From assembly GCA_031271205.1 (NCBI GenBank), contig JAISWG010000004.1:1-37068 (forward strand): 37,068 nt of DNA. The letters are read 5' to 3'. Source of the stretch: Endomicrobium sp. GTDB taxonomy: Bacteria > Elusimicrobiota > Endomicrobiia > Endomicrobiales > Endomicrobiaceae. Positions within the stretch are counted from its first letter, which is position 1, and each line of letters opens with the position of its first letter. Under the pieces are notes generated by a model. That model made no database searches and was not told where the DNA came from. It saw only the letters and a list, made by a program, of their open reading frames with translations. This document shows, one piece after another, positions 3,660 through 33,263 of this stretch. The translations under genes were made by a program, and so were the position numbers.

Positions 3660-4433
3660 ATGAAGTTAGCAATTTGCGGAGCTTCTGGAAGAATGGGGCA
3701 GTCCATAATTGTCATGGCTAAAGAGGATTTTGAGATTCAAATATCAGGAGCTTTGGAATTTGAAGGCAGTAAAGCTATAGGTACAGGAAGTCCTATAATA
3801 TCCTCTGTAGCTGATTTGGAAAAAATTTTAAAAAATACTGATGTATTAATAGATTTTACAAATCCTGAAAGTACTTTAAAAAATTTGGATTTGGCTGTAA
3901 AACAAAAAGTACCTGTGGTTATAGGTACTACTGGTTTTTCTGAAGAACAAAAAACGAAAATATATGAAGCTTCAAAGGTTATTCCTATAGTTTTTTCGCC
4001 AAATATGTCAGTAGGCGTGAATGTTTTGTTTAAACTTGTTGAAGAGTTAGTTAAAAAAATTCCAGATTATGATGTAGAAATAGTTGAGTTGCATCATAAT
4101 AAAAAAAAGGATTCTCCTTCAGGAACAGCCGCAAAGCTTGCTGAAGTGGTAGCGTCTTCAATAGGTAAAGATATTAAAGACGTAGGTGTCTATGGCAGAC
4201 ATTCGACTAACTCTGCAAGAAAAAAGGATGAAATAGGCGTTCTTTCTGTAAGAGCGGGAGATATTGTTGGCGATCATACTGTTTATTTTGTAGGACCTGG
4301 TGAAAGAATAGAATTGACACACAGAGCGCATTCTAGAGATGCTTTTGCTGCAGGAGCAGTTAGGGCTGCAAAGTGGGTTGTTGATAAAAAGCTTGGACTA
4401 TACGATATGTCTGCTGTGCTATTATTAAAATAA
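3660..4433 (+). CDS. dapB: 4-hydroxy-tetrahydrodipicolinate reductase
   Basis: NAD(P)H-dependent reduction to tetrahydrodipicolinate, following DapA. The dinucleotide loop GASGRMG is at residues 7-13, and the substrate motif ELHHNKKKDSPSGTA is near 143-157, with the catalytic histidine pair and lysine. I start it at the ATG at 3660, giving the canonical MKLAICGASG start and 257 residues, with AGGAG about 11 nt upstream. An in-frame GTG at 3651 lies too close to the ribosome-binding site and would add only three residues. It is the last gene of the lysA-dapF-dapA-dapB run. Confidence 0.94.
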   Translation: MKLAICGASGRMGQSIIVMAKEDFEIQISGALEFEGSKAIGTGSPIISSVADLEKILKNTDVLIDFTNPESTLKNLDLAVKQKVPVVIGTTGFSEEQKTKIYEASKVIPIVFSPNMSVGVNVLFKLVEELVKKIPDYDVEIVELHHNKKKDSPSGTAAKLAEVVASSIGKDIKDVGVYGRHSTNSARKKDEIGVLSVRAGDIVGDHTVYFVGPGERIELTHRAHSRDAFAAGAVRAAKWVVDKKLGLYDMSAVLLLK

Positions 4434-4488
4434 AAAATCATTTTATTTATTAAATTTTATAGAGAGACACCTTGTACGCTTTGTTGTA

Positions 4489-4494
4489 TATAAT
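4489..4494 (+). promoter_or_regulatory. Possible -10 element for dapL
   Basis: A perfect TATAAT lies 57 nt before the dapL start, within a 118-nt gap after dapB. The -35 is poor (GAGACA-like at a 19-nt spacer). The gap and this element suggest that dapL has its own promoter, but the evidence is weak. Confidence 0.3.
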
Positions 4495-4551
4495 GTTACA
4501 GGATAAATTTGGTTGTTATAACTTTAAAATACAAATTGGAGAATTAAAAAA

Positions 4552-5718
4552 ATGAAAATTTGTTACAACGAAAAATTAAAAAGAATACCTCCTTATCTTT
4601 TTATTGAAATAGACAGAAAGAAAAAAGAGGCAATAAATAGAGGTGCAGATATAATATCTTTAGGAGTTGGTGATCCGGACATGCCTACTCCTGAGCATAT
4701 AATAAAATCTATGCAGAATGCGGTTGCAAAACCTTTTAATCACCAATACCCATTTGGAGCAGGTTTGCTTTCTTATAGGAAAGCTGTTGTAGATTGGTAT
4801 AAAAAAAGATTTAACGTTTACTTGAATAATGATGAAGTTTGTGCTCTTATTGGTTCGAAAGAAGGTATAGGTCATATTCATTTAGGATTTATAAATCCAG
4901 GAGATATTGTTTTAATTCCAGAACCTGGTTATCCAGTATATAATACTGGAACAATTTTTACTGATGGTGTTCCATACTTCATGCCCTTACTTGAAAAAAA
5001 CGGTTTTTTGCCTGATTTAGATTCTATACCTCAGGATGTTGTCAAAAAAGCAAAACTGATTTTTATAAATTATCCTAATAATCCTACAGCTGCTGTTGCT
5101 CCAAAAGAATTTTATGTAAAGCTTATAGAGTTTGCCAAAAAAAATAATATAATTGTAGTTGCAGATGCTGCGTATTCTGAAATATACTATGACGAAAAAG
5201 ATAAGCCTTCAAGTTTCCTTGAGTTTCCAGGAGCTAAAGAAGTGGGTGTGGAATTTCACTCGCTTTCTAAAACATATAATATGACAGGTTGGCGTATAGG
5301 GTGGGTGTGTGGAAATAAAAACGTTGTTGCAGGTATTGCTAAAGTTAAGGATAATTATGATTCTGGAGTTTTTCAAGCTATTCAGGAAGCTGCTATTACA
5401 GCGTTATCGTCTTCGCAGGAATGTGTTGAGAATGCCAGAAAAATATATAAAGAACGCAGAGATGTTTTGGTTGAAGGTTTAAAAAAAATTGGTTGGGAAG
5501 TAAGTTTTCCAAAAGCTTCGTTTTATGTTTGGACTAAAGTTCCAAAAGGATATACTTCTTCCAAAACAGTCTCAAAACTTCTTGATGATGCATTTATTGT
5601 TTGTACTCCTGGCAACGGTATGGGGAAAAGTGGTGAAGGTTATGTGAGATTTGCTTTAACTGTTAGCGTTTCAAGAGTTAAAGAGGCTTTGGAACGTATA
5701 AGTAAAATTAATTGGTAA
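4552..5718 (+). CDS. dapL: LL-diaminopimelate aminotransferase (class I)
   Basis: A fold-I, class I PLP aminotransferase of 388 residues. The PLP lysine is K240 in HSLSKTYNMTGWRIG, the NYPNNPT motif lies at 173-179, and the substrate-carboxylate arginine is R366 in GYVRFALT. The family alone could mean aspartate aminotransferase. The position directly after lysA-dapF-dapA-dapB, and the absence of dapD/dapC/dapE here, point to LL-DAP aminotransferase, which converts tetrahydrodipicolinate to LL-DAP in one step with glutamate. The start has GGAGAA about 7 nt upstream. The specific substrate is inferred. Confidence 0.85.
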   Translation: MKICYNEKLKRIPPYLFIEIDRKKKEAINRGADIISLGVGDPDMPTPEHIIKSMQNAVAKPFNHQYPFGAGLLSYRKAVVDWYKKRFNVYLNNDEVCALIGSKEGIGHIHLGFINPGDIVLIPEPGYPVYNTGTIFTDGVPYFMPLLEKNGFLPDLDSIPQDVVKKAKLIFINYPNNPTAAVAPKEFYVKLIEFAKKNNIIVVADAAYSEIYYDEKDKPSSFLEFPGAKEVGVEFHSLSKTYNMTGWRIGWVCGNKNVVAGIAKVKDNYDSGVFQAIQEAAITALSSSQECVENARKIYKERRDVLVEGLKKIGWEVSFPKASFYVWTKVPKGYTSSKTVSKLLDDAFIVCTPGNGMGKSGEGYVRFALTVSVSRVKEALERISKINW

Positions 5719-6835
5719 GATTTATGTGCAACTGTCTTATAATAAATTTCATGTTTTTGTGGGAAAAATAAAATGATGTAATTGAAAGAAATAATTGTGT
5801 CGTTTGTGATATCTTTCTGTTGCTTATTGGTTCTGCATTTGTATTGCTGTTTGTAAGTAGTTTGATGAAAAGCCTCTTTTTTTCTATTTCTTTGTTTTGT
5901 TGCGTATTATCTTTTAACAGGTAAATTATGTTCTTGAGACCGATTTTTGAGTGTAGTCTCATCAGTTACCACTGTTTGTACTTTCTTGTTTTTCAAAACA
6001 CAATAATTACTAGAGAAATATTTCTGTGTTTGTTAGATATAGAGATTTGGTGTTTTGTTTCTCGTTATTGATTTTTGTCAGATGTCTGCTTGTTTTGAAA
6101 AGGACAAGTCTTTCTTTATTAAAATAATATTACTTATAATATGTGGATCTAAGAGTCCTATTGTTATTAAGTGTTAATTTTATACACTGTATAAGTTTTT
6201 CTTGTAAATGCTCTTTTGCTCTATTTTGGATATTTTTTTTGCATTGCTTCTTGTATGTTTGTGTCTCTTTTTTCCTATTCTACATCTGTTATTTCTCGTT
6301 GTTTTGTGTAGGGTTCAAAATAACGTTTGTAGGTAATATTTTTTGTTTTTTCTCTGCTGGTTCTCGCGGTTAAATATTGTGAGATCTTAAGTCATTGAAA
6401 TCTTAAGTTTTTGTGTGTTTTCTCGTTGTTCGCAATTCTGATTATATGATGTCATTTTAGCGTTGCTGTTAATTTTTTAAATTGTTCTAATCTAGTCTCT
6501 TAGTCTTTTCTATTAAGCTTTTTAGCGTTTTATTGTTCTATTTTTATAATGTGTTTATAGTGTTCTGTAGTTGGTGCTTATTGTCCACTAATTTTTTCTA
6601 TGTCTTAGCTTTGTGTTTTAATTTATTATGAGTGTTTATATTACTTGTTCATTTCTTTGTTTTCTCTTTTTTTTATGCTACTTTTTGCCACCTCTTCTAC
6701 ATATAGCGCATAAGCACATAGTTATGTTTACTTATTGTTCATTACTTTGTGTATTTGTATATCTGCATATGTATTTTTCTGTTCATTCTGCGATGTTATT
6801 ATGTAGTAAATGATTTATTTCTTTTTTTGTATAGA
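5719..6835. other. Non-coding T-rich block, probably eroded sequence
   Basis: No convincing gene in about 1.1 kb. The + strand is very T-rich, so hydrophobic-looking short frames on + (6143-6373, 6628-6813) are compositional. On the - strand several short stretches look protein-like but are cut by stops and frame changes (about 5720-5962, 6030-6120, 6190-6400). This would fit a dead gene or genes read leftwards. I could not assign a family. Confidence 0.4.
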
Positions 6836-6850
6836 GAAGGAGGGGGGAGT

Positions 6851-6946
6851 ATGAATCCTCTTTTCATCTTTTCTTTCTTTCATGAAACTCTGAGAGTGAT
6901 CATTGTATTTTTTGTGCACTCTGTTGACAAAAAAACACTAGAATAA
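6851..6946 (+). CDS. Possible 31-residue small ORF with strong ribosome-binding site
   Basis: ATG at 6851 is preceded by a perfect AAGGAGG (6837-6843) at 7-nt spacing, the best such signal in the window. The frame encodes MNPLFIFSFFHETLRV and continues to a TAA at 6944-6946, with a hydrophobic middle. It could be a real small membrane peptide, the surviving start of a dead gene, or chance: the site includes a run of six G at 6842-6847. No homologue is recognised. Confidence 0.25.
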   Translation: MNPLFIFSFFHETLRVIIVFFVHSVDKKTLE

Positions 6947-6952
6947 TACAGT
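6924..6952 (+). promoter_or_regulatory. Possible promoter before the murC-side remnant
   Basis: TTGACA at 6924-6929, a 17-nt spacer, then TACAGT at 6947-6952. An extended -10 (TGCTAAAAT, 7087-7095) lies closer to the eroded frame at 7125. Either could now drive the murC operon across the remnant. Confidence 0.3.
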
Positions 6953-7124
6953 AGTTTCATAATTTTTTTCTTTCTTTATAAGTATTATCTAATTTTGAAT
7001 TTATAATAATACAAAATTTAATTTGTTAGAATTTTATGAATTATAACTGGTTCACGAATTTTCAAAAAATCAAATTCTATAAAAAATGCTAAAATATTGA
7101 ACGTGTGTAATATTTGGATAAATT

Positions 7125-7494
7125 ATGGGAAATAAAATAATTATTTTTGACAGAGTTACGTCAGACTTACTTGAAGCGATGCCGTGTCAGTATGTAGGAA
7201 AAAACAAAATGTTTGCATAGAGGCTGCTGAAGAATTTACTTGTTTTTGTCTTTGGAACAGGTCTTTCTGATTTTGCATACATCATTATCAAAATTATGTG
7301 CCTGAGATAAAAATACTGCGGAGCTTAAGTTTTTAAAAAATGTATTTTGCAGAGTTATAGAATGGTTAGTATGCTTTATGAAAGCGTGGTAAACAAGCAT
7401 ATTTAGAGATCTGGTTAAAGTTATTGAGCCTAAAGAGATATCTGTGTGTTATGTAGATATAGAAATTTGGTATAAAAAGCTGGAGGAGGGGTAA
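7125..7494 (+). pseudogene. Eroded gene immediately upstream of murC
   Basis: ATG at 7125 opens 31 codons (MGNKIIIFDRVTSDLLEAM...) ending at 7218-7220. Protein-like pieces follow in changing frames; the last, about 7408-7494, reads FRDLVKVIEPKEISVCYVD and ends just before murC. In division clusters murG often precedes murC, but I see none of the MurG signature motifs, so I leave it unassigned. No intact frame spans the region. Confidence 0.35.
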
Positions 7495-7542
7495 CAACTG
7501 TAAGTGCCAATTTTTAAAAAAATAAACTTCTTTGAGGAAATA

Positions 7543-14627: not shown

Positions 14628-15438
14628 AATCATAATTTTTACCTTATATTTATTAGTTTAGTATAATACTTGTCGTTAACGTTGTGCATTTTATTCGGAG
14701 AGGTTAAGTATATTTTTAAAATTGATGGAAATCAGAGAATTTAATATATAAAGTTAACAGAGAAACAGCAAAACTTTATCTTAGTTTTATATCACTTTTC
14801 ATTTCCTGCAAAATGAAGTTTTAAAAACCATATTTATAAAAATATTTTTGGTAAGAATTTCTATATATACATATATGTAGAAATAATAGTAAGCGCTTTC
14901 AGAGAAATTTGAAACTGCGGTAAAAAGTGTTGTTTAATGTTATTGAGTGACGACACTCTCGCACATCAAACTGCAATGATATTTTATTTAGTAGATATTC
15001 TTTTTGGAGTTCTATCAGAAATTTATAAGAGTAGTACGAATTTTTGTGTAGTTCTAGTAGAAAATTCTAACTATGATCTGTTTTAAATGTAACACTTTTA
15101 GACATTTTTTGTTGAAACTGATATTAAAATATGTACTATATGATGAGCTTAAAAATATTATTCTGACGCAGAACAACACAGTATTTTTATTACATATAAG
15201 ATTTCAATAGAGTCTAACGGTAAAGGTAAAACAGTTTTAATAGTTAAAAAAGTTGTAGTTTTATATAAAATATACTTAAAATTTTTGAAAAAATAATGCA
15301 AATTTGACAAAAATTGAATTGTAACTGATTAAGAAAAAATTTGAATATATGTTTTTGTTGATTTTAAATGGTATTTTAATACTAAAATATAATTAAGGGA
15401 TAAAAAAGTTTGGACAGATACCCCCATGGGAGCATAGC
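14628..15438 (+). pseudogene. Non-coding gap with an eroded gene fragment
   Basis: About 800 nt with no intact gene. Two adjoining pieces look protein-like: ALSEKFETAVKSVV (14893-14934) and, in another frame, ATG 14937 to stop 15084-15086 (49 codons, MLLSDDTLAHQTAMIFYLVD...). A third lies at about 15161-15240. A TTGACA occurs at 15304-15309 without a good -10. The middle piece weakly resembles a stretch of histidinol dehydrogenase, which would fit its place before hisC, but I cannot support that firmly. Confidence 0.3.
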
Positions 15439-16560: not shown

Positions 16561-16563
16561 AAA

Positions 16564-17199
16564 TTGAATTTTGTAATAATAACAATAAAATCTGTCGCAA
16601 AACTGAAAGATATTGCTATTTTTGCAGAAAAGATTATAAATGGTTAGAGTGCAACATAATAATACAAGCCTCATATATCAAAAGATAATGACATTACAAT
16701 TACAGAATAAACATTATTCCGAGTGGGAAAAAGGCTGTTGATTTAACACATTAAGTTCTGTTCCTAAATTGGTGAGTATAGAGAGTTTTTTTTGGTGGTT
16801 GATCACATATTTTCAGATAATTAATAGATAAATGATTTGCATGAAAAATATGTTAATTCTGAAAATACAGTCATGAAGAATCGTGTTACATTTTTTCAGG
16901 TACCAAGTCTAAATGAGGCTATAGCGAACTGGTTTAATGGTTTTTATGGAAGTGATATATGCAGAATTGGGGAAAATATTGAAGAAATTGTTGACAGTGT
17001 AAAAATTACTAATACTGATCATAAAAAATTTTGTTATAAGTGGAGGTTTGTTTTTTTTGGATTATCAATATTTTCTGTGTAAAAGTTAGTTTTATACGAG
17101 AGTAATGGTAATTTAAACAAAAGTTTTGATCATAAATATTTTGCCAATATTATGAAAATTGTAAATATAAATGAGACTAATTACAAGAGATTAAGTTAA
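16564..17199 (+). pseudogene. aroA: aroA remnant (EPSP synthase), internally deleted
   Basis: Three pieces in order resemble 3-phosphoshikimate 1-carboxyvinyltransferase. Near 16570: ITIKSVAKLKDIAIFAEK, like the N-terminal I-x-I-K...KLKG.I.vPgDKSI. At 16873-17082, NRV...L...G then IVDSVKITNTDHKKF resembles the R..........DHRiaM region. At 17101-17199, NLNKSFDHKYFANIM resembles the C-terminal v.KSFP.FF..L. Frames differ and stops interrupt. At about 640 nt it is half the normal gene length, so the middle is gone. Gene order hisC-aroA-cmk-plsC-ispH occurs in other bacteria and supports the reading. Identity comes from motifs only. Confidence 0.5.
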
Positions 17200-17207
17200 C
17201 AATAAAA

Positions 17208-17585
17208 ATGTTGTGATTAAATTCTGCTAGAAACAGTTTTATGATGTTTTTGTGTGTGAGAAACAAGATTCTTTAATAAATAAGAGAATTTTCAATGAAT
17301 TGTTTTGCAATTGCATATAGAGATTAAGTATTCAAAGCTTAAAGTTGCGAAATAGAGATTTCCAATTGTGTTTAGAATGGTTGATGATTTTTTGTATTTG
17401 TTTTTGCTAATAACTCAAACTAAAGGAATAACTAAAATTTTAGAGTTATATAAGGGAGAACACTTAAAGTTAAGGAAACAGACAAACAGCTGTATTTTGT
17501 GTAATAGTATCTTTATGAGATTAGCATAGAAGAAGCATATAATATAAAAGATTTAAGCTGCGTAATGTGTTTTTTCTATTTGTGA
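17208..17585 (+). pseudogene. cmk: cmk remnant (CMP kinase), frameshifted
   Basis: Short pieces in changing frames match the order of cytidylate kinase motifs. LNSARNSFMMFLCVRNKIL near 17217 fits IDGPagSGKSt.ak.La..l; VFRMVDDFLYLFLL... ILELYKG near 17370-17460 fits vvFPdAd.K.fL.A...R...R..eL..kG; and YLYEISIEEAYNIKDL near 17511-17560 fits the C-terminal iDts.lsieEv...I. Several stops and frame changes make it dead. It directly precedes plsC, the usual neighbour of cmk. Each match alone is weak; order and position carry the call. Confidence 0.4.
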
Positions 17586-17600
17586 GGTATTGAAAAGCAT

Positions 17601-18194
17601 ATGCAAGTAAAAGAAAAATCTTCTTTCTTATTTTTGCTTGGTAGGCAAATATTTAGAATAATATTTAAACTATTTTATAGATATTGTATAGAAGGATTGC
17701 AGAACATACCGAACACTGGAGGAGCGGTAATCGCTCCAAATCATATAAGTTTCTTTGATCCACCTCTTATAGGCGCGGCCATGAAACGTCCGTTGTATTT
17801 TATGGCAAAAAAAGAGTTGTTTGACATTCCTATATTTGGTTGGACTATAAAACAGACAAACGCATTTCCTGTTAAGAGGGGAGTTCAAGATATGTTTGCT
17901 GTTAGATATGCGTTTTCTCTACTTGAGAGAGGGCGTCTGCTTTTGATGTTTCCTGAAGGCGTTCGCTCTAGAGATGGAAAGTTGGGAAAAGCCAGGGCTG
18001 GGGTTGGTATGGTGGCGTGCAATGCTCAAGTTCCTTTAATTCCGGTCAAAATAGAGAATACGAACATGATGATGTTAAAGTTTAAACAGATAAAAATAAA
18101 ATACGGAAAACCCATATACCCTCCAAAGAATTTTTCAAAAAAAGATTATATAAGCTTGTCGCAAAAAGTTTTGGACGAAATATCAAAAATGTAA
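17601..18194 (+). CDS. plsC: 1-acyl-sn-glycerol-3-phosphate acyltransferase
   Basis: Membrane-associated acyltransferase that makes phosphatidic acid from lysophosphatidate. The catalytic H-x4-D lies at H48-D53 in NHISFFDP, and the glycerol-phosphate-binding FPEGVRSRDG starts at 117; VPLIPVKIENT follows. A hydrophobic N-terminal stretch (SFLFLLGRQIFRIIFKLFY) probably associates with the membrane. 197 residues is a normal short form. The start at 17601 has GAGG about 14 nt upstream, rather far. It precedes ispH by 15 nt and follows the cmk remnant. Confidence 0.93.
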   Translation: MQVKEKSSFLFLLGRQIFRIIFKLFYRYCIEGLQNIPNTGGAVIAPNHISFFDPPLIGAAMKRPLYFMAKKELFDIPIFGWTIKQTNAFPVKRGVQDMFAVRYAFSLLERGRLLLMFPEGVRSRDGKLGKARAGVGMVACNAQVPLIPVKIENTNMMMLKFKQIKIKYGKPIYPPKNFSKKDYISLSQKVLDEISKM

Positions 18195-18209: not shown

Positions 18210-19085
18210 GTGGGTAAAAATATTGAATCAAAAACAGCCGCTAATGCTGGGTTTTGTTTTGGTGTTAAAAGAGCTATAGATTTAGTAGAAAAAACCTTGA
18301 ATGAAAAATCTGAGGTCTATACTTTAGGGCCAATAATTCATAATCCTCAAGAAGTTAAACGTCTTAAAGAAAAAGGTGTGAAAATTTTAAATGAGATTGA
18401 CTGTGTTAAAAGTAGTTGTATAATTCTAAGAACTCACGGTATATCTTTAGAATTGCGCAATAGGCTTGAAAAAGATAAAACACTACATATTATAGATGCC
18501 ACCTGTCCATTTGTTAAGAAAGCTCAAGATATAATCAAAAATTTAAGTTCGCAAAAAACGACTATAGTAATAGTTGGTGAGAATTCTCACCCTGAAGTTG
18601 AGGCGCTTGTCTCTTATGGAAGAGATAAATGTGTTGTTATTGAAAATTCTAGAGAAGCACTTGAGTTTAAAGGGATAGGTGAGTTAAATATTGTAAGTCA
18701 GACAACACAGACTCCTCAAAATTTCAATGTTATTGTTGAAATTTTAAAGAAACGATTTAAGATTAATATTTATAACACTATATGCAAAGCAACACTTGAA
18801 AGACAGGAATCTGCTAAAAAACTCTCCAAGAAAGTTGATTTAATGATAGTTATAGGTGGTAAGAATTCAGGAAACACTACGCGACTTGCCGAGATATGTA
18901 AGACCCAAACAAAAACATATCATATTGAAACTATAGATGAATTAGATGATAAATGGTTTAACAATATCAATACTGTAGGTTTAACTGCGGGAGCTTCAAC
19001 TCCTGATAATATAATAAAAAGTGTGCAAAATAGACTTGGAAAGATTCTCAAAACGGATATTATAAAAAAAGAAGAGCGAAAATAG
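18210..19085 (+). CDS. ispH: 4-hydroxy-3-methylbut-2-enyl diphosphate reductase
   Basis: Iron-sulfur enzyme of the last step of the MEP isoprenoid pathway, yielding IPP and DMAPP. The three cluster cysteines are C16 (NAGFCFGVKRA), C99 (DATCPFVKKA) and C192 (NTICKATLERQ). Substrate histidines H44, H76 and H127 and E129 of SHPEVEAL are present. 291 residues is typical for a stand-alone IspH, with no S1 fusion. It uses GTG at 18210 with GGAGAG 7 nt before it. It is paired with plsC, supplying lipids and undecaprenyl precursors for the wall. Its stop overlaps a GTG that opens a dead frame. Confidence 0.96.
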   Translation: MGKNIESKTAANAGFCFGVKRAIDLVEKTLNEKSEVYTLGPIIHNPQEVKRLKEKGVKILNEIDCVKSSCIILRTHGISLELRNRLEKDKTLHIIDATCPFVKKAQDIIKNLSSQKTTIVIVGENSHPEVEALVSYGRDKCVVIENSREALEFKGIGELNIVSQTTQTPQNFNVIVEILKKRFKINIYNTICKATLERQESAKKLSKKVDLMIVIGGKNSGNTTRLAEICKTQTKTYHIETIDELDDKWFNNINTVGLTAGASTPDNIIKSVQNRLGKILKTDIIKKEERK

Positions 19086-19336
19086 TGGAAAATATAAAAA
19101 TTTAGCTAAAATAATTTTTGGAAATAGTGTGAAATGTCTGCGTGACCAATTTGATGAAAAATTCTTGATAAAGCAAGTAAAGAGTTGAATTTGGACAAGA
19201 GTTAGGTGTTGATTACTATGATGAAGTAACTGCATATAAATCGTAAAATGCTCTAATGACGCGGTAGTCATGTAACAGTAATAATCTTGAGAGCTATAAA
19301 AAGGTTTATTGTTTTGATATGGGTGTACAATAAAAA
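19085..19336 (+). pseudogene. Eroded gene overlapping the ispH stop
   Basis: A GTG shares a base with the ispH stop (TAGTG). Allowing a one-base shift, it reads MENIKNLAKIIFGNSVKCL and continues to about 19175. In another frame GQELGVDYYDEVTAY follows (about 19193-19245), then scattered pieces to about 19336. The tight overlap suggests a former third gene of the plsC-ispH operon. I do not recognise the family. Together with the rest of the gap to 19447 there is no intact gene. Confidence 0.35.
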
Positions 19337-19447
19337 ATGTGCTTCTTATTCTGAAGTTACAGAATATGCTTGATATCCAATAATGTTTTGATATATACCT
19401 ATCGAATTATTTATTTTAGATATTTATTGTCGTTTTGCCTGTAGTTT

Positions 19448-20614: not shown

Positions 20615-20623
20615 AACTAAATA

Positions 20624-20652
20624 ATTATATTGAAATAGATAATCACTGTCAA
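20624..20652 (-). promoter_or_regulatory. Consensus promoter for the minus-strand hydrolase
   Basis: Read on the minus strand, TTGACA (20652-20647), a 17-nt spacer and TATAAT (20629-20624) match the sigma-70 consensus exactly. Only 9 nt separate the -10 from the ATG (20614), so transcription should start about 2-3 nt before the start codon. Confidence 0.75.
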
Positions 20653-20689
20653 ATAAAAATTTAAATTTGTTTAATAAAATAATGTAAAT

Positions 20690-20719
20690 TTGACAAACTA
20701 AAGATTATTTTTAAATAAT
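20690..20719 (+). promoter_or_regulatory. Orphan divergent promoter
   Basis: TTGACA at 20690-20695, an 18-nt spacer and AATAAT at 20714-20719 (five of six). It points rightwards into a dead gene whose ATG is at 20770, away from the hydrolase promoter 40 nt to its left. Confidence 0.45.
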
Positions 20720-20769
20720 ACACAATAGCATATGAGACATTGAAACGTGAGTAATAATTTGAAGGATAT

Positions 20770-21640
20770 ATGAACCTAATTTTAGCTGTTGTGTATTTTT
20801 TATGTTTTTTGAGAGGTAGGCATACCCATTAAATTGGCTTGTTTTGAGTTTTGGGTTTGTATCTTTTATATATGGAAACAAAAGAGTTGGCGTTTTTTTG
20901 TCAGTTCTTTTTTAGTTTTTTGCAAGATAGAAAAGAATGATAAAGAATTATTTGTTTTTACTTTTATTTTAGTTGTAGTGCATGCACGTTAGTTTGTTTT
21001 TAATCTTATTTGCATAGGATTTATTTTTTTGAGTAAAGAAGTATCGGTTATGGATATGTTATATTTCAGTAAGCATGAGATTTGGTATATGTGTGGTATA
21101 TAGAGGGCTTATGTTGTGTGGTTTTATTAGTAAAGTTTTAAATGTTTTTTTTGGAGAACGTACTAGACAGTTGAGGTTGTATGTTTTTAAAAGCTATGTA
21201 AGGAAAAAGGTGAAAAACTAAAACTTGACAATAAAAAAGTACGAGTAACGAATAATTAGGCATAGGAATGAATTAGTATTCTAAGTTTAGAGATAGAATA
21301 TCTGTAATGTAGAAAGAAGAGTAGACTGGGCATTTTTATCCTTGTTAAAAAAAAGAAAACTTTTGTGAATTAAGAATGGCTGCTTTTTGGACATACCTTG
21401 TTCTATGAGTGTATGACTCTGTAGTGATAGAAATGCATGAAAATGCAGTTTTCGAAAGATTGGAGTGGTTTTTGTTGTTGGTTGGCGATTTTGTCATTGG
21501 ATACAGTACATTAATATTTTAGTGTATAGCTTGTTGAAAAATTGAAAAGGACAAGAAGGTATTGTTTTCTATTGTGTTATTTGTTTTGTGAGCCTTTTTA
21601 AAAAACATAGAGAATATAAAATGGAAAATTGATGTTTTTT
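20770..21640 (+). pseudogene. Decayed membrane-protein gene
   Basis: After a GAAGGA site, ATG 20770 begins MNLILAVVYFLCFLRGRH, then meets stops. Hydrophobic pieces continue in the same and other frames, including ELAFFCQFFFSFLQ near 20887 and RLEWFLLLVGDFVIGYSTL near 21461-21516. G exceeds C and T is high on +, as expected for an integral membrane protein read rightwards. An upstream promoter and ribosome-binding site support a former gene. The family is not recognised. T-rich sequence alone can mimic membrane segments, so confidence is limited. Confidence 0.35.
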
Positions 21641-21673
21641 TTCTTCTAATAGCTAAGTTTTAAAATATTACAT

Positions 21674-21747
21674 GCCCTGATAGCTTAACTGGATAGAGCA
21701 GATCCGTCCTAAGGATAAGGTTGGAGGTTCAATTCCTCTTCAGGGCG
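21674..21747 (+). tRNA. tRNA-Arg (anticodon CCU)
   Basis: A complete cloverleaf: acceptor GCCCTGA pairs with TCAGGGC, D stem GCTT/GAGC with GG in the loop, anticodon loop GTCCTAA with CCT at 34-36, T stem GGAGG/CCTCT with loop TTCAATT, and discriminator G. It reads the AGG arginine codon, AGA/AGG being the codons used throughout this window. CCA is not encoded. Oddities are a G-A mismatch at pair 27-43 and G at position 32. It stands alone between decayed regions. Confidence 0.92.
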
Positions 21748-21927
21748 TATAAATTCGCAGAGTTTGTTTTATTTTTTTTGACAAAATGGTTATTCTATTA
21801 TTTCAAAACCATATTTTCTCATTACTACATTGTGGCTTTTTGTTTTTTTTGACTCATAGAAAATTATATTTAGTGTGTTTTAAAATTATATTGCTGCCTA
21901 GTTAGATATATAAAGAAAAATAATATA

Positions 21928-22202
21928 ATGTGTCACAAGTATCTAAAGTCGTGAAAGAATTTTAAATATACTTATCAAAAAATATGCTACAAAATTAAAA
22001 AAACAAAAAGTGGCAAATAAATATGGTATCTTTGTTCTTACAAGTTCTCAAATAAATATGGCAGTGTCAGTTAAATTATATTGAGACTTACTCAGAAACA
22101 AGCGTTAAAAATAGAATTGATAGTTTATACATATGTAAGAAGTTACATAACTATAAAACAGCTAAAAAAATAAATCAGTATTATTTTTATAAAGTGATTT
22201 AA
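21928..22202 (+). pseudogene. hprK: hprK remnant (HPr kinase/phosphorylase)
   Basis: ATG 21928 opens MCHKYLKS then stops. From 21947 a frame runs ERILNILIKKYATKL and then VANKYGIFVLTSSQINM (to a stop at 22082-22084). This resembles the HprK N-domain, where a YL.. segment and an IIvT.....p.el...A.KY.ipvL.T...T region occur. A third frame to 22202 (YIETYSETSVKNRIDSLYI) would fit the following linker. The kinase P-loop domain is missing. It is followed directly by a ptsH-like remnant, which is where hprK is often found. Assignment is by motif and context. Confidence 0.4.
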
Positions 22203-22430
22203 TATTTGGTCATTTTGTAAAATTATAAAAAGAAAGCACGGAGGGCCTCTTGTAGAAATGGTAAAAGAAATAGAAAGCTTTACTAAAAGTGTTAAATTAA
22301 ATGTTATAGTGAAAACTTGATAGTAATTCAGTGCATTTATATAATGTTGACTATAAAGTATACTATGAATGTCTATTATCTTATAAAAGGTAGTAAAAAA
22401 ATATGTAAGATGTTGATTTTTATTTGTTAA
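22198..22430 (+). pseudogene. ptsH: ptsH remnant (phosphocarrier HPr)
   Basis: The frame from 22198 to the TGA at 22318 contains HGGPLVEMVKEIESFTKSV. Aligned without gaps to E. coli HPr HTRPAAQFVKEAKGFTSEI, it keeps the phosphorylated His, the Pro at +3, VKE and FT. After a one-base shift near 22315 the reading continues IQCIYIMLTIKYTMNV... IKGSKKICKMLIFI to a stop at 22428-22430, matching the HPr pattern SIM.l..L......i.i...G.de...i..l..li. The total is about 77 codons, close to HPr length. The Arg after the active His is lost and the frame is broken, so it is dead. Confidence 0.5.
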
Positions 22431-22763
22431 ACATAATAGTTTTAAGGATAATTAAAATCATGACAACCATCAAAAATATGTCTCACAAGATGGAATAAGA
22501 TACTAAAGAGATATAAGACAAAATAAGACTTTTCCCAGTATTTTTGAAGCGATTTCGGTGTAGTGACACGATTGTTGGCTTATAGTATATATTACATCTT
22601 ACTTGTTATATATTATCCTGTTTTTAAATAATTTATTTTTTGCGTACGATTATTGATTTGTTGACCTATTTTTCGATCGGGTAATGATAAATAAATATTT
22701 GTTGGTATGTTATATATAAAAGTAAGAATATGGCAATGAGCTTTAGAAATTTGAGTCTAGTGA

Positions 22764-22889
22764 TATATAAAAATTCGAGGAGGTGTTTTAAGAACATTTT
22801 TGTTTAATACGAAGGATGGATATGAGATTTTTAAGTTGTATCAAAATTTAAAAAGACATAAGAACAATGTGTTAGCTGTGATATGGTAA
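22764..22889 (+). pseudogene. ptsI: ptsI remnant (PTS Enzyme I)
   Basis: A 41-codon open stretch contains GGVLRTFLFNTKDGYEIFK and then LYQNLKRHKNNVLAVIW. This corresponds to the Enzyme I PEP-binding region, GVGLYRTEFLF...P.EEEQ...Y......V.iRT, with one residue (the Glu of RTEF) missing. It follows the ptsH remnant, as ptsI does in most PTS operons. Only about a tenth of the gene is readable; flanking sequence to about 23090 is too eroded to place. Nothing else is evident from 22890 to the thrC start. Confidence 0.4.
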
Positions 22890-23294
22890 ATAATATTTTG
22901 GTAAATATTACGAAATATGAATAGATATAATATAAATAGGACAATATATTTCAAAAATTGGGTTAAAAATTATAACTCTATATTATTTTGTGAATTTAGG
23001 CTGCAGTACATGAGAAAGTATATTTTAATAACTTTTTCCAAGATGAGTTTCGCTATTTCAATTTTCGGAGATTGTTTTGCTAATGTATAAGTTGTTAAGT
23101 CAGTTCAGTATAGTTGAAAAATATATCAGTAAATAAATACTTAAACTATACTTAACTAATTTCATAAACAACTCTTCTTTAATTTTTAATTGCTTTATTT
23201 ATAACCAATTTATTTTATAATTGCTTTAATAGTTTGAAAATAATAAAATGCAGTACATAACATTATAATGTATTGCGTTTAATAGGATAATAAA

Positions 23295-31683: not shown

Positions 31684-31795
31684 TTTAGTTTTTTTAATAG
31701 CTACATCCTAATTTTATCATGCTAATTTAATTTTCTTAAAGGTTAGAATAATTAATATTTATGTAAAAACTTGTTTTCAAATAATATATTAATCA

Positions 31796-32940
31796 ATGAA
31801 AGCAAATTTTTATTATTCTGGTTTTAGTATTTATGGAAAAATAAGAGTAGAAACAGATGTAGAAGATAGATATGGATATTTTAATACAATAATATTTTCT
31901 GGCACAAGTGGTACTTAATGAGGTAAGCTGTGTAGTATTGAGAAACTAAATAAAAGAAGAAACTAATAAACTTAAACAGTTGAGAGTGTTTAGTATATAT
32001 ATTATAGTTAATAAGTTGGGATATTAATTTTTAATACTGTAAAATGTATTTGATAATGAAAGCAAGTGGCAGGAAAAAGATTGTATTGTTGTATAGAGAG
32101 AAATTAACAGCAATATTTTTAATATGAATGAAGTGTTAATATTTAAAGGAAATAAAGCAATTATGATAAAAGTAGTGAATGTTGTTACTACGTGTTTGTG
32201 TTTATAAAGGTCTAATAGTAAATAGCGATGTTTATTAATACTAGCGCGTGATAACTAAACGAAGATGTAATAATTATAAATGAGAATGACGCATTAATAA
32301 ACACAACACAGGAAAAATGGTAATTTACATATGACTTCTGCCTGTAGGAAGAGAAAAAGTTGGTTTTAAATGAAAATTAGTGGAATAAGTATAGAGAAAT
32401 ATAAGCTAGAAGATAATTAATTTGATAGTTATAGGAATTGATAAAGGTGTAATATTTTGTCTAAATGGCAATAATAATAATGTACAAGCAGTTTTTTTTT
32501 GGGTGGTTTAGGGAGATAAATTTCTGAAATATTAGAAGTGAAACAAGGAAAGTATAATCAGTATAAAGTTATTACTAATAATAACTATAGCTATTGACAT
32601 ATATAAATCAAGTGCCAAATTTAAAAAAGAGAGTGTATAGCAACCAGGTTGTAGAAAAACTAGGGTTGTGTACTAAACAAGAAAATTTACTTGTATAAAA
32701 ACAATAGAAAAAAAGTTTATTAAACATGGGAAATAGCTAGAAATAAAAAGCAAAGTTTAGATTTTAGATGTATAGATGAAATTTAATTAAAATACAGTGA
32801 GCGTTGTTAAACAATATGGGAAAAATAGATTGATATAGGTAGCGGGCCATTATATAAGATAGGATTGTAGGCACAAACTTTCTAACTGTAACTGTGAATA
32901 TCAAAATGTCAAGGTGATATGTAGGCGTGAGTTGTAAATT
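31796..32940 (+). pseudogene. comM: comM remnant (Mg-chelatase-like ATPase)
   Basis: Pieces in order match ComM/YifB. ATG 31796 to stop 31916-31918 (40 codons) has GKIRVETDVEDRYGYFNTI, like the N-terminal G..V.VE.Di..GLP.F.IVGL. Near 32641, QPGCRKTRVVY resembles the Walker A GPPGSGKTMLA. At 32881-32937, SNCNCEYQNVKVICRR resembles the zinc-like AMNPCPCGY.gd....C.C motif. Stops and shifts separate them, with spacing altered relative to a normal 1.5-kb gene. ComM is a branch-migration helicase used in natural transformation. Identity rests on motifs and their order. Confidence 0.4.
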
Positions 32941-33263
32941 TGTCTTAGAGAAAATTAAAATATAAAACCTGCTAAATACTAAATGTTATAAAGCCAATTA
33001 ATATTAATAAATTATTAAAAACAGGTTAAAAAAACTTAAAGCTCCAAAAATAGTTATCAAAGAATTAATTAATATGACAAACTATATTTTGTGTAAATTT
33101 ATATTACTCTTTACTAAAAACATTAAAATAATACTTAAAATTGCAAAAACTTTGTCAAACTATTTCAAATATTTGTATTTGTGTACAATGTGGGCAAATA
33201 AGTTATATAATCAAGTGCTAGTTAACATGTAGAAATTCTTAAGTTAAAGGAAGGTATTCATGT
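32941..33263. other. AT-rich leader region of secA
   Basis: No gene seen. Candidate -10 elements (TACAAT at about 33184, TATAAT at about 33205) lack convincing -35 partners. AAGGAAGG (33247-33254) is the secA ribosome-binding site. Confidence 0.35.

Follow-up and report, generated by a model that had tools for sequence, protein, structure and literature searches.

Relics of an aromatic amino acid operon around a retained hisC in a draft Endomicrobium sp. genome

The interval between hisC and plsC in Endomicrobium sp. is a pseudogene field. We consider it very probable that the region is what remains of an aromatic amino acid operon that has eroded while hisC was kept, and that its bearer is a flagellate endosymbiont of the Candidatus (Ca.) Endomicrobiellum lineage. 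The window analyzed here is an entire contig of 37,068 nucleotides (G000:C22) from a 610-kb draft genome in 29 contigs, with a completeness of 53.5%. The nearest named relatives of this genome are Ca. Endomicrobiellum, flagellate endosymbionts of the termite gut, and the closest of them is Ca. Endomicrobiellum devescovinae (locus L081). The DNA of the locus was compared by a sensitive search with the loci L081, L082, L085, L092, and L084. Profiles made from the relatives' intact proteins were also searched in six frames against the hisC-plsC gap, with 200 dinucleotide-shuffled versions of it as the control.

No intact gene is found at 16561-17600, where the sole open frame of at least 80 aa is an 81-aa ORF (16837-17082). 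Aligned to L081 at the DNA level, the gap contains, without change of order or strand, the 5′ end of aroF, a D12-class methylase, a part of aroA, and the aroA 3′ end (Table 1). Relics at the locus are likewise collinear with L082, L085, L092, and L084. The aroF, D12, and aroA profiles matched at 10.7, 52.7, and 18.0 bits, respectively, and for each of them 0/200 shuffles scored as well. Together these three genes account for nearly all of the gap. The original prediction of an eroded aro locus at this place, with aroA among the casualties, is thus borne out. Its inventory missed the aroF and D12 methylase relics, as well as a pheA relic upstream of hisC, and included a cmk relic for which we find no signal (see below). 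A weak Pfam match of the 81-aa ORF to RE_HpaII (0.017) was a false lead; the ORF is D12 methylase debris. Three further long stretches of the window are devoid of convincing ORFs (5719-7503, 20615-23294, and 31684-33263) and are possibly more pseudogene fields.

Table 1. Relics and intact genes at the hisC-plsC locus (positions in the window).
Feature	Position	Strand	Evidence
pheA (chorismate mutase/prephenate dehydratase) relic, upstream of hisC	~14706..15434	+	Collinear DNA match to L081 pheA
hisC, intact, 373 aa	15439..16560	+	Open frame; TIGR01141 309 bits, above cut-off
aroF (DAHP synthase) 5′ relic	16573..16705	+	DNA block continuous with hisC vs. L081 and L085; profile
Dam-like D12-class N6-adenine DNA methylase relic	16726..17214	+	DNA, tblastn, profile
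aroA (EPSP synthase) relic, intact-gene codons ~249-348	17189..17490	+	DNA, tblastn, profile
aroA 3′ end relic, last ~27 codons (~404-430)	17531..17607	+	DNA block continuous with plsC vs. L081
plsC (1-acyl-glycerol-3-phosphate acyltransferase), intact	17601..18194	+	PF01553 7e-31
ispH, intact	18210..19085	+	PF02401 3e-95

The aroF relic lies at the syntenic place 3′ of hisC, covers profile positions 1-39, and has lost its initiator ATG. A deletion of ~2.85 kb directly follows it. The L081 coordinates skip from 3750 to 6605 between aroF and the first D12 block, so that the rest of aroF, tyrA, a restriction endonuclease, and the first methylase codons are gone. By profile, the gap holds no remnant of tyrA (prephenate dehydrogenase; −3.2 bits, 117/200 shuffles as good) or of the endonuclease (−1.5 bits, 99/200 shuffles as good). 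One weak tyrA DNA match (1.8e-4) in the gap is overlapped by better D12 and aroA matches. The methylase relic aligns with L081 in two pieces, 16726-16879 (E = 6e-14) and 16879-17214 (E = 1.8e-44), and is also recovered by tblastn (2.5e-11). It is a pseudogene, with similarity above chance, a frame broken by 21 frameshifting gaps, and a destroyed DPPY motif, the L081 DPPY codons aligning to other residues.

The larger aroA relic matches L081 (E = 9.6e-43) and L082 (3.8e-45) at the DNA level and is found by tblastn at 5e-5. Its overlap with the D12 relic (17189-17214) is an alignment ambiguity. The similarity is located directly upstream of plsC, as synteny demands, and the frame is disrupted by frameshifting gaps, 18 in the larger piece and 4 in the 3′ end. 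Codons ~1-248 and ~349-403 are deleted or beyond recognition. The erosion of aroA proposed originally therefore stands for the 3′ part of the gene. We did not recognize any N-terminal aroA in the gap in the DNA and profile comparisons, and what is left of aroA falls in the half that had been assigned to cmk. Decay also extends upstream of hisC. The first part of the pheA relic matches L081 pheA with E = 6.7e-48 at the DNA level, and a second part, after an internal deletion of ~265 bp at 15157/15184, continues into hisC. Profile matches of 1.2e-8 and 1.5e-5 fall in two frames, and 22 frameshifting gaps are spread across both parts.

The intact neighbors are of a different character. Compared to L081, plsC has 90.1% DNA identity, no frameshift, and mismatches by codon position of 0.03/0.05/0.22, concentrated at the third. 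The same holds for ispH, with 90.0% identity, no indels, and mismatches of 0.05/0.03/0.21. In the relics, identity to L081 is 77-86%, the third-position excess is inconsistent, and each alignment has 2-24 gaps, mostly frameshifting (2-18 each), although these counts vary with the alignment settings. In a control comparison of L081 with L085, the same genes show the constrained pattern. hisC is 89.7% identical to L081 without indels, and its first-codon-position change is somewhat raised (0.11 vs. 0.05 in the L081/L085 control). Judging from this sequence divergence, hisC may be under relaxing constraint. Downstream of ispH, an rpsA (ribosomal protein S1) relic is found at 19086-19350 as collinear DNA pieces, with ~1.5 kb deleted; in L081 and many other relatives, an intact rpsA (559 aa in L081) follows ispH. 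As the assembly is a draft, the gap could in principle stem from a collapsed or chimeric contig rather than from biological decay, but we regard this as very improbable. A chimera would leave clean junctions and intact reading frames, whereas here relics in the right order and strand carry many separate indels and substitutions between flanks that are 90% identical and free of frameshifts. In relatives that were assembled separately, moreover, this locus has decayed to other degrees.

The ancestral arrangement can be read from relatives in which the locus is intact. In L081 the order is pheA-hisC-aroF-tyrA-[type II REase-D12 methylase]-aroA-plsC-ispH, and the intact set of L085 (Ca. E. porotermitis) is the same. 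These two clusters share the gene order of the window and have plsC protein identities to it of 92% and 84%, respectively. All cluster genes are open in both, while the window retains open frames of the cluster for hisC, plsC, and ispH alone. The bracketed pair is an insertion between tyrA and aroA. Directly upstream of aroA in L081, L085, L092, and L100, a ~365-aa protein is followed by a ~293-aa protein, and the adjacent genes are predicted by PADLOC to form a type II restriction-modification pair. The ~293-aa protein, where intact, is a D12-class adenine methylase (PF02086 9e-34; PADLOC MTase_II 2.2e-106). PADLOC identifies the ~365-aa protein as a type II endonuclease (REase_II 5.6e-75), although we found no match to it in Pfam, NCBIfam models, or PDB sequences and solved structures. 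It is located at L081:5481-6575, L085:6740-7834, L092:6695-7780, and L100:292-1377. Set against the PADLOC pair (REase_II PDLC03572 and D12-class MTase_II PDLC03247), the window has the methylase at the same insertion site, but broken, and no endonuclease gene.

At this place, the genes are partly or wholly lost in L093, L094, L095, L099, L101, L102, L105, L106, L112, and L118. Pieces of aroF and aroA are left in L094, both genes persist with large losses in L095, and a scrap of aroF is left in L093. In L099, L102, L106, L112, and L118, hisC is followed by plsC with no recognizable aro gene between them, and in L101, L105, L115, and L117 hisC has been lost too. Thus, decay of the aro locus probably happened repeatedly. 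We regard the hisC-plsC interval as ordinary reductive evolution that is well resolved here.

The original prediction had aroA and cmk both eroded here, in that order, and took the loss of CMP kinase to mean either another copy or nucleotides supplied by the host. The aroA erosion is real, and so is the order aroA-cmk-plsC-ispH outside the family. In other families of the order (L073, L074, and L075) the locus reads, with small variations, ftsZ-pilT-yfiH-pheA-hisC-aroF-tyrA-aroA-cmk-plsC-ispH-rpsA. That order does not extend to Endomicrobiaceae. In the order-level relatives L076 and L077 and in the Endomicrobiaceae loci with aroA, cmk is missing and aroA either abuts plsC or overlaps it. Within Endomicrobiaceae this was so at every aroA locus read, among them those of the intact relatives in the genus and L104, L107, L110, and L114. 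In relatives the intact aroA overlaps the start of plsC by 7 bp. The Cmk profile, at best −3.8 bits in the gap (137/200 shuffles as good), gave no signal above chance. The CMP-kinase-like motifs noted in the second half of the gap lie in DNA of the D12 methylase and the aroA 3′ sequence. Because the intact relatives read leave no room for a gene between aroA and plsC and canonical Cmk (PF02224) has no convincing representative among 77 Endomicrobiaceae genomes, no cmk relic is to be expected, and we give the joint erosion of aroA and cmk almost no credence. With no recent loss of cmk, the locus gives no grounds to infer that the host supplies nucleotides.

We conclude that cmk left the hisC-plsC place long ago and family-wide, and that it is not part of the operon in Endomicrobiaceae. 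In the PF02224 search of the 77 genomes, a single match just above the cut-off was a 50-residue N-terminal match within a 1468-aa frame. The other matches were weak, N-terminal, ~30 residues long, and mostly in frames of adenylate-kinase length. Those in the source genome and its relatives were rejected as Cmk; they are P-loop matches, and where a frame could be read it is adenylate kinase. Several other Endomicrobiaceae genera and some endosymbionts have an intact PF13189 "Cytidylate_kin2" protein. It is broken in one genome (G005), apparently broken in another (G051), and not convincingly found in others, including near-complete ones of the genera g25, g27, g28, and g29. From its domain and patchy distribution, this protein is a possible substitute for CMP kinase, although one representative matched the (d)CMP kinase model TIGR02173 far below the cut-off. 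A tentative reading, which we hold to be somewhat less likely than its converse, is that the family Endomicrobiaceae has dispensed with canonical CMP kinase, even in near-complete genomes that do not belong to the endosymbiont genus, with the PF13189 protein seemingly used by some genera and decaying in some endosymbionts. The four genera in which neither family was convincingly found would then possess an unrecognized enzyme or live without CMP salvage.

The rest of the aromatic pathway bears on whether the genome still makes these amino acids. Statements of absence for Endomicrobium sp. refer to family searches of an assembly that is 53.5% complete. In it we found no chorismate synthase, no DAHP synthase, and no PF00275 match at all, and therefore no EPSP synthase. 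The single PF00793 match in the genome was rejected as DAHP synthase; it is KdsA. These absences are weak evidence, because MurA, which shares PF00275, is missing from the assembly too. The present copies of the aromatic genes could be dead while a second intact set elsewhere keeps the pathway running. Duplicated key genes in Em. trichonymphae are cited by Mies et al. (2024; PMC11257099), and the MAG of Ca. E. guadaloupense (Pcl387_bin170, G009) has two aroA-plsC regions (L084 and L087). Both run aroA-plsC-ispH and they differ in similarity, as would result from duplication, transfer, or a mixed bin. With such copies in some relatives and about half of the source genome assembled, an intact aroA, aroF, or tyrA elsewhere is possible. 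A second set that sustains the pathway is, nevertheless, unlikely, as the assembled half has none of the three synthases and several genus members without the locus keep just one PF00275 gene, as expected if it is MurA.

Loss of the operon may have been compensated by uptake of aromatic amino acids. Intact AroP-like permease genes are found in most genus members searched, often several per contig, and in 0/9 of the order- and class-level relatives. Three to five such genes are on one contig in each of G005:C52, G004:C13, G014:C8, and G009:C62. In Endomicrobium sp. itself, the only AroP-like piece is a fragment at a contig edge, shortened by a stop, and uptake is something we infer. In the available text of Mies et al. 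(2024; PMC11257099), several Ca. Endomicrobiellum subclades have lost aromatic amino acid synthesis, with AroP transporters as the likely compensation. The genus, the pathway, and the proposed compensation are the same as here, and our locus data agree with that view of loss and uptake. The description in that text is at the level of the pathway, whereas here the pheA, aroF, D12, and aroA relics are identified in place and with coordinates.

The decay of the operon thus remains by far the best reading of the region, and it may have proceeded as follows. The ancestor would have had the arrangement still present in L081 and L085. Selection on aromatic synthesis would have lapsed, possibly because the host supplied aromatic amino acids through AroP-type permeases. 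pheA, aroF, and aroA would then have gathered frameshifts and deletions, a loss of ~2.85 kb would have taken tyrA and the endonuclease with it, and the methylase would have decayed alongside. hisC was presumably retained because it serves histidine synthesis, and plsC and ispH because lipid and isoprenoid synthesis need both.

The plausible inference of a recent cmk loss is hereby corrected, and the CMP kinase puzzle becomes one of the whole family, not specific to this Endomicrobium sp. genome. The locus itself provides a base-level snapshot of the decay of a biosynthetic operon around a kept hisC, including an inserted restriction-modification pair dying along with it.
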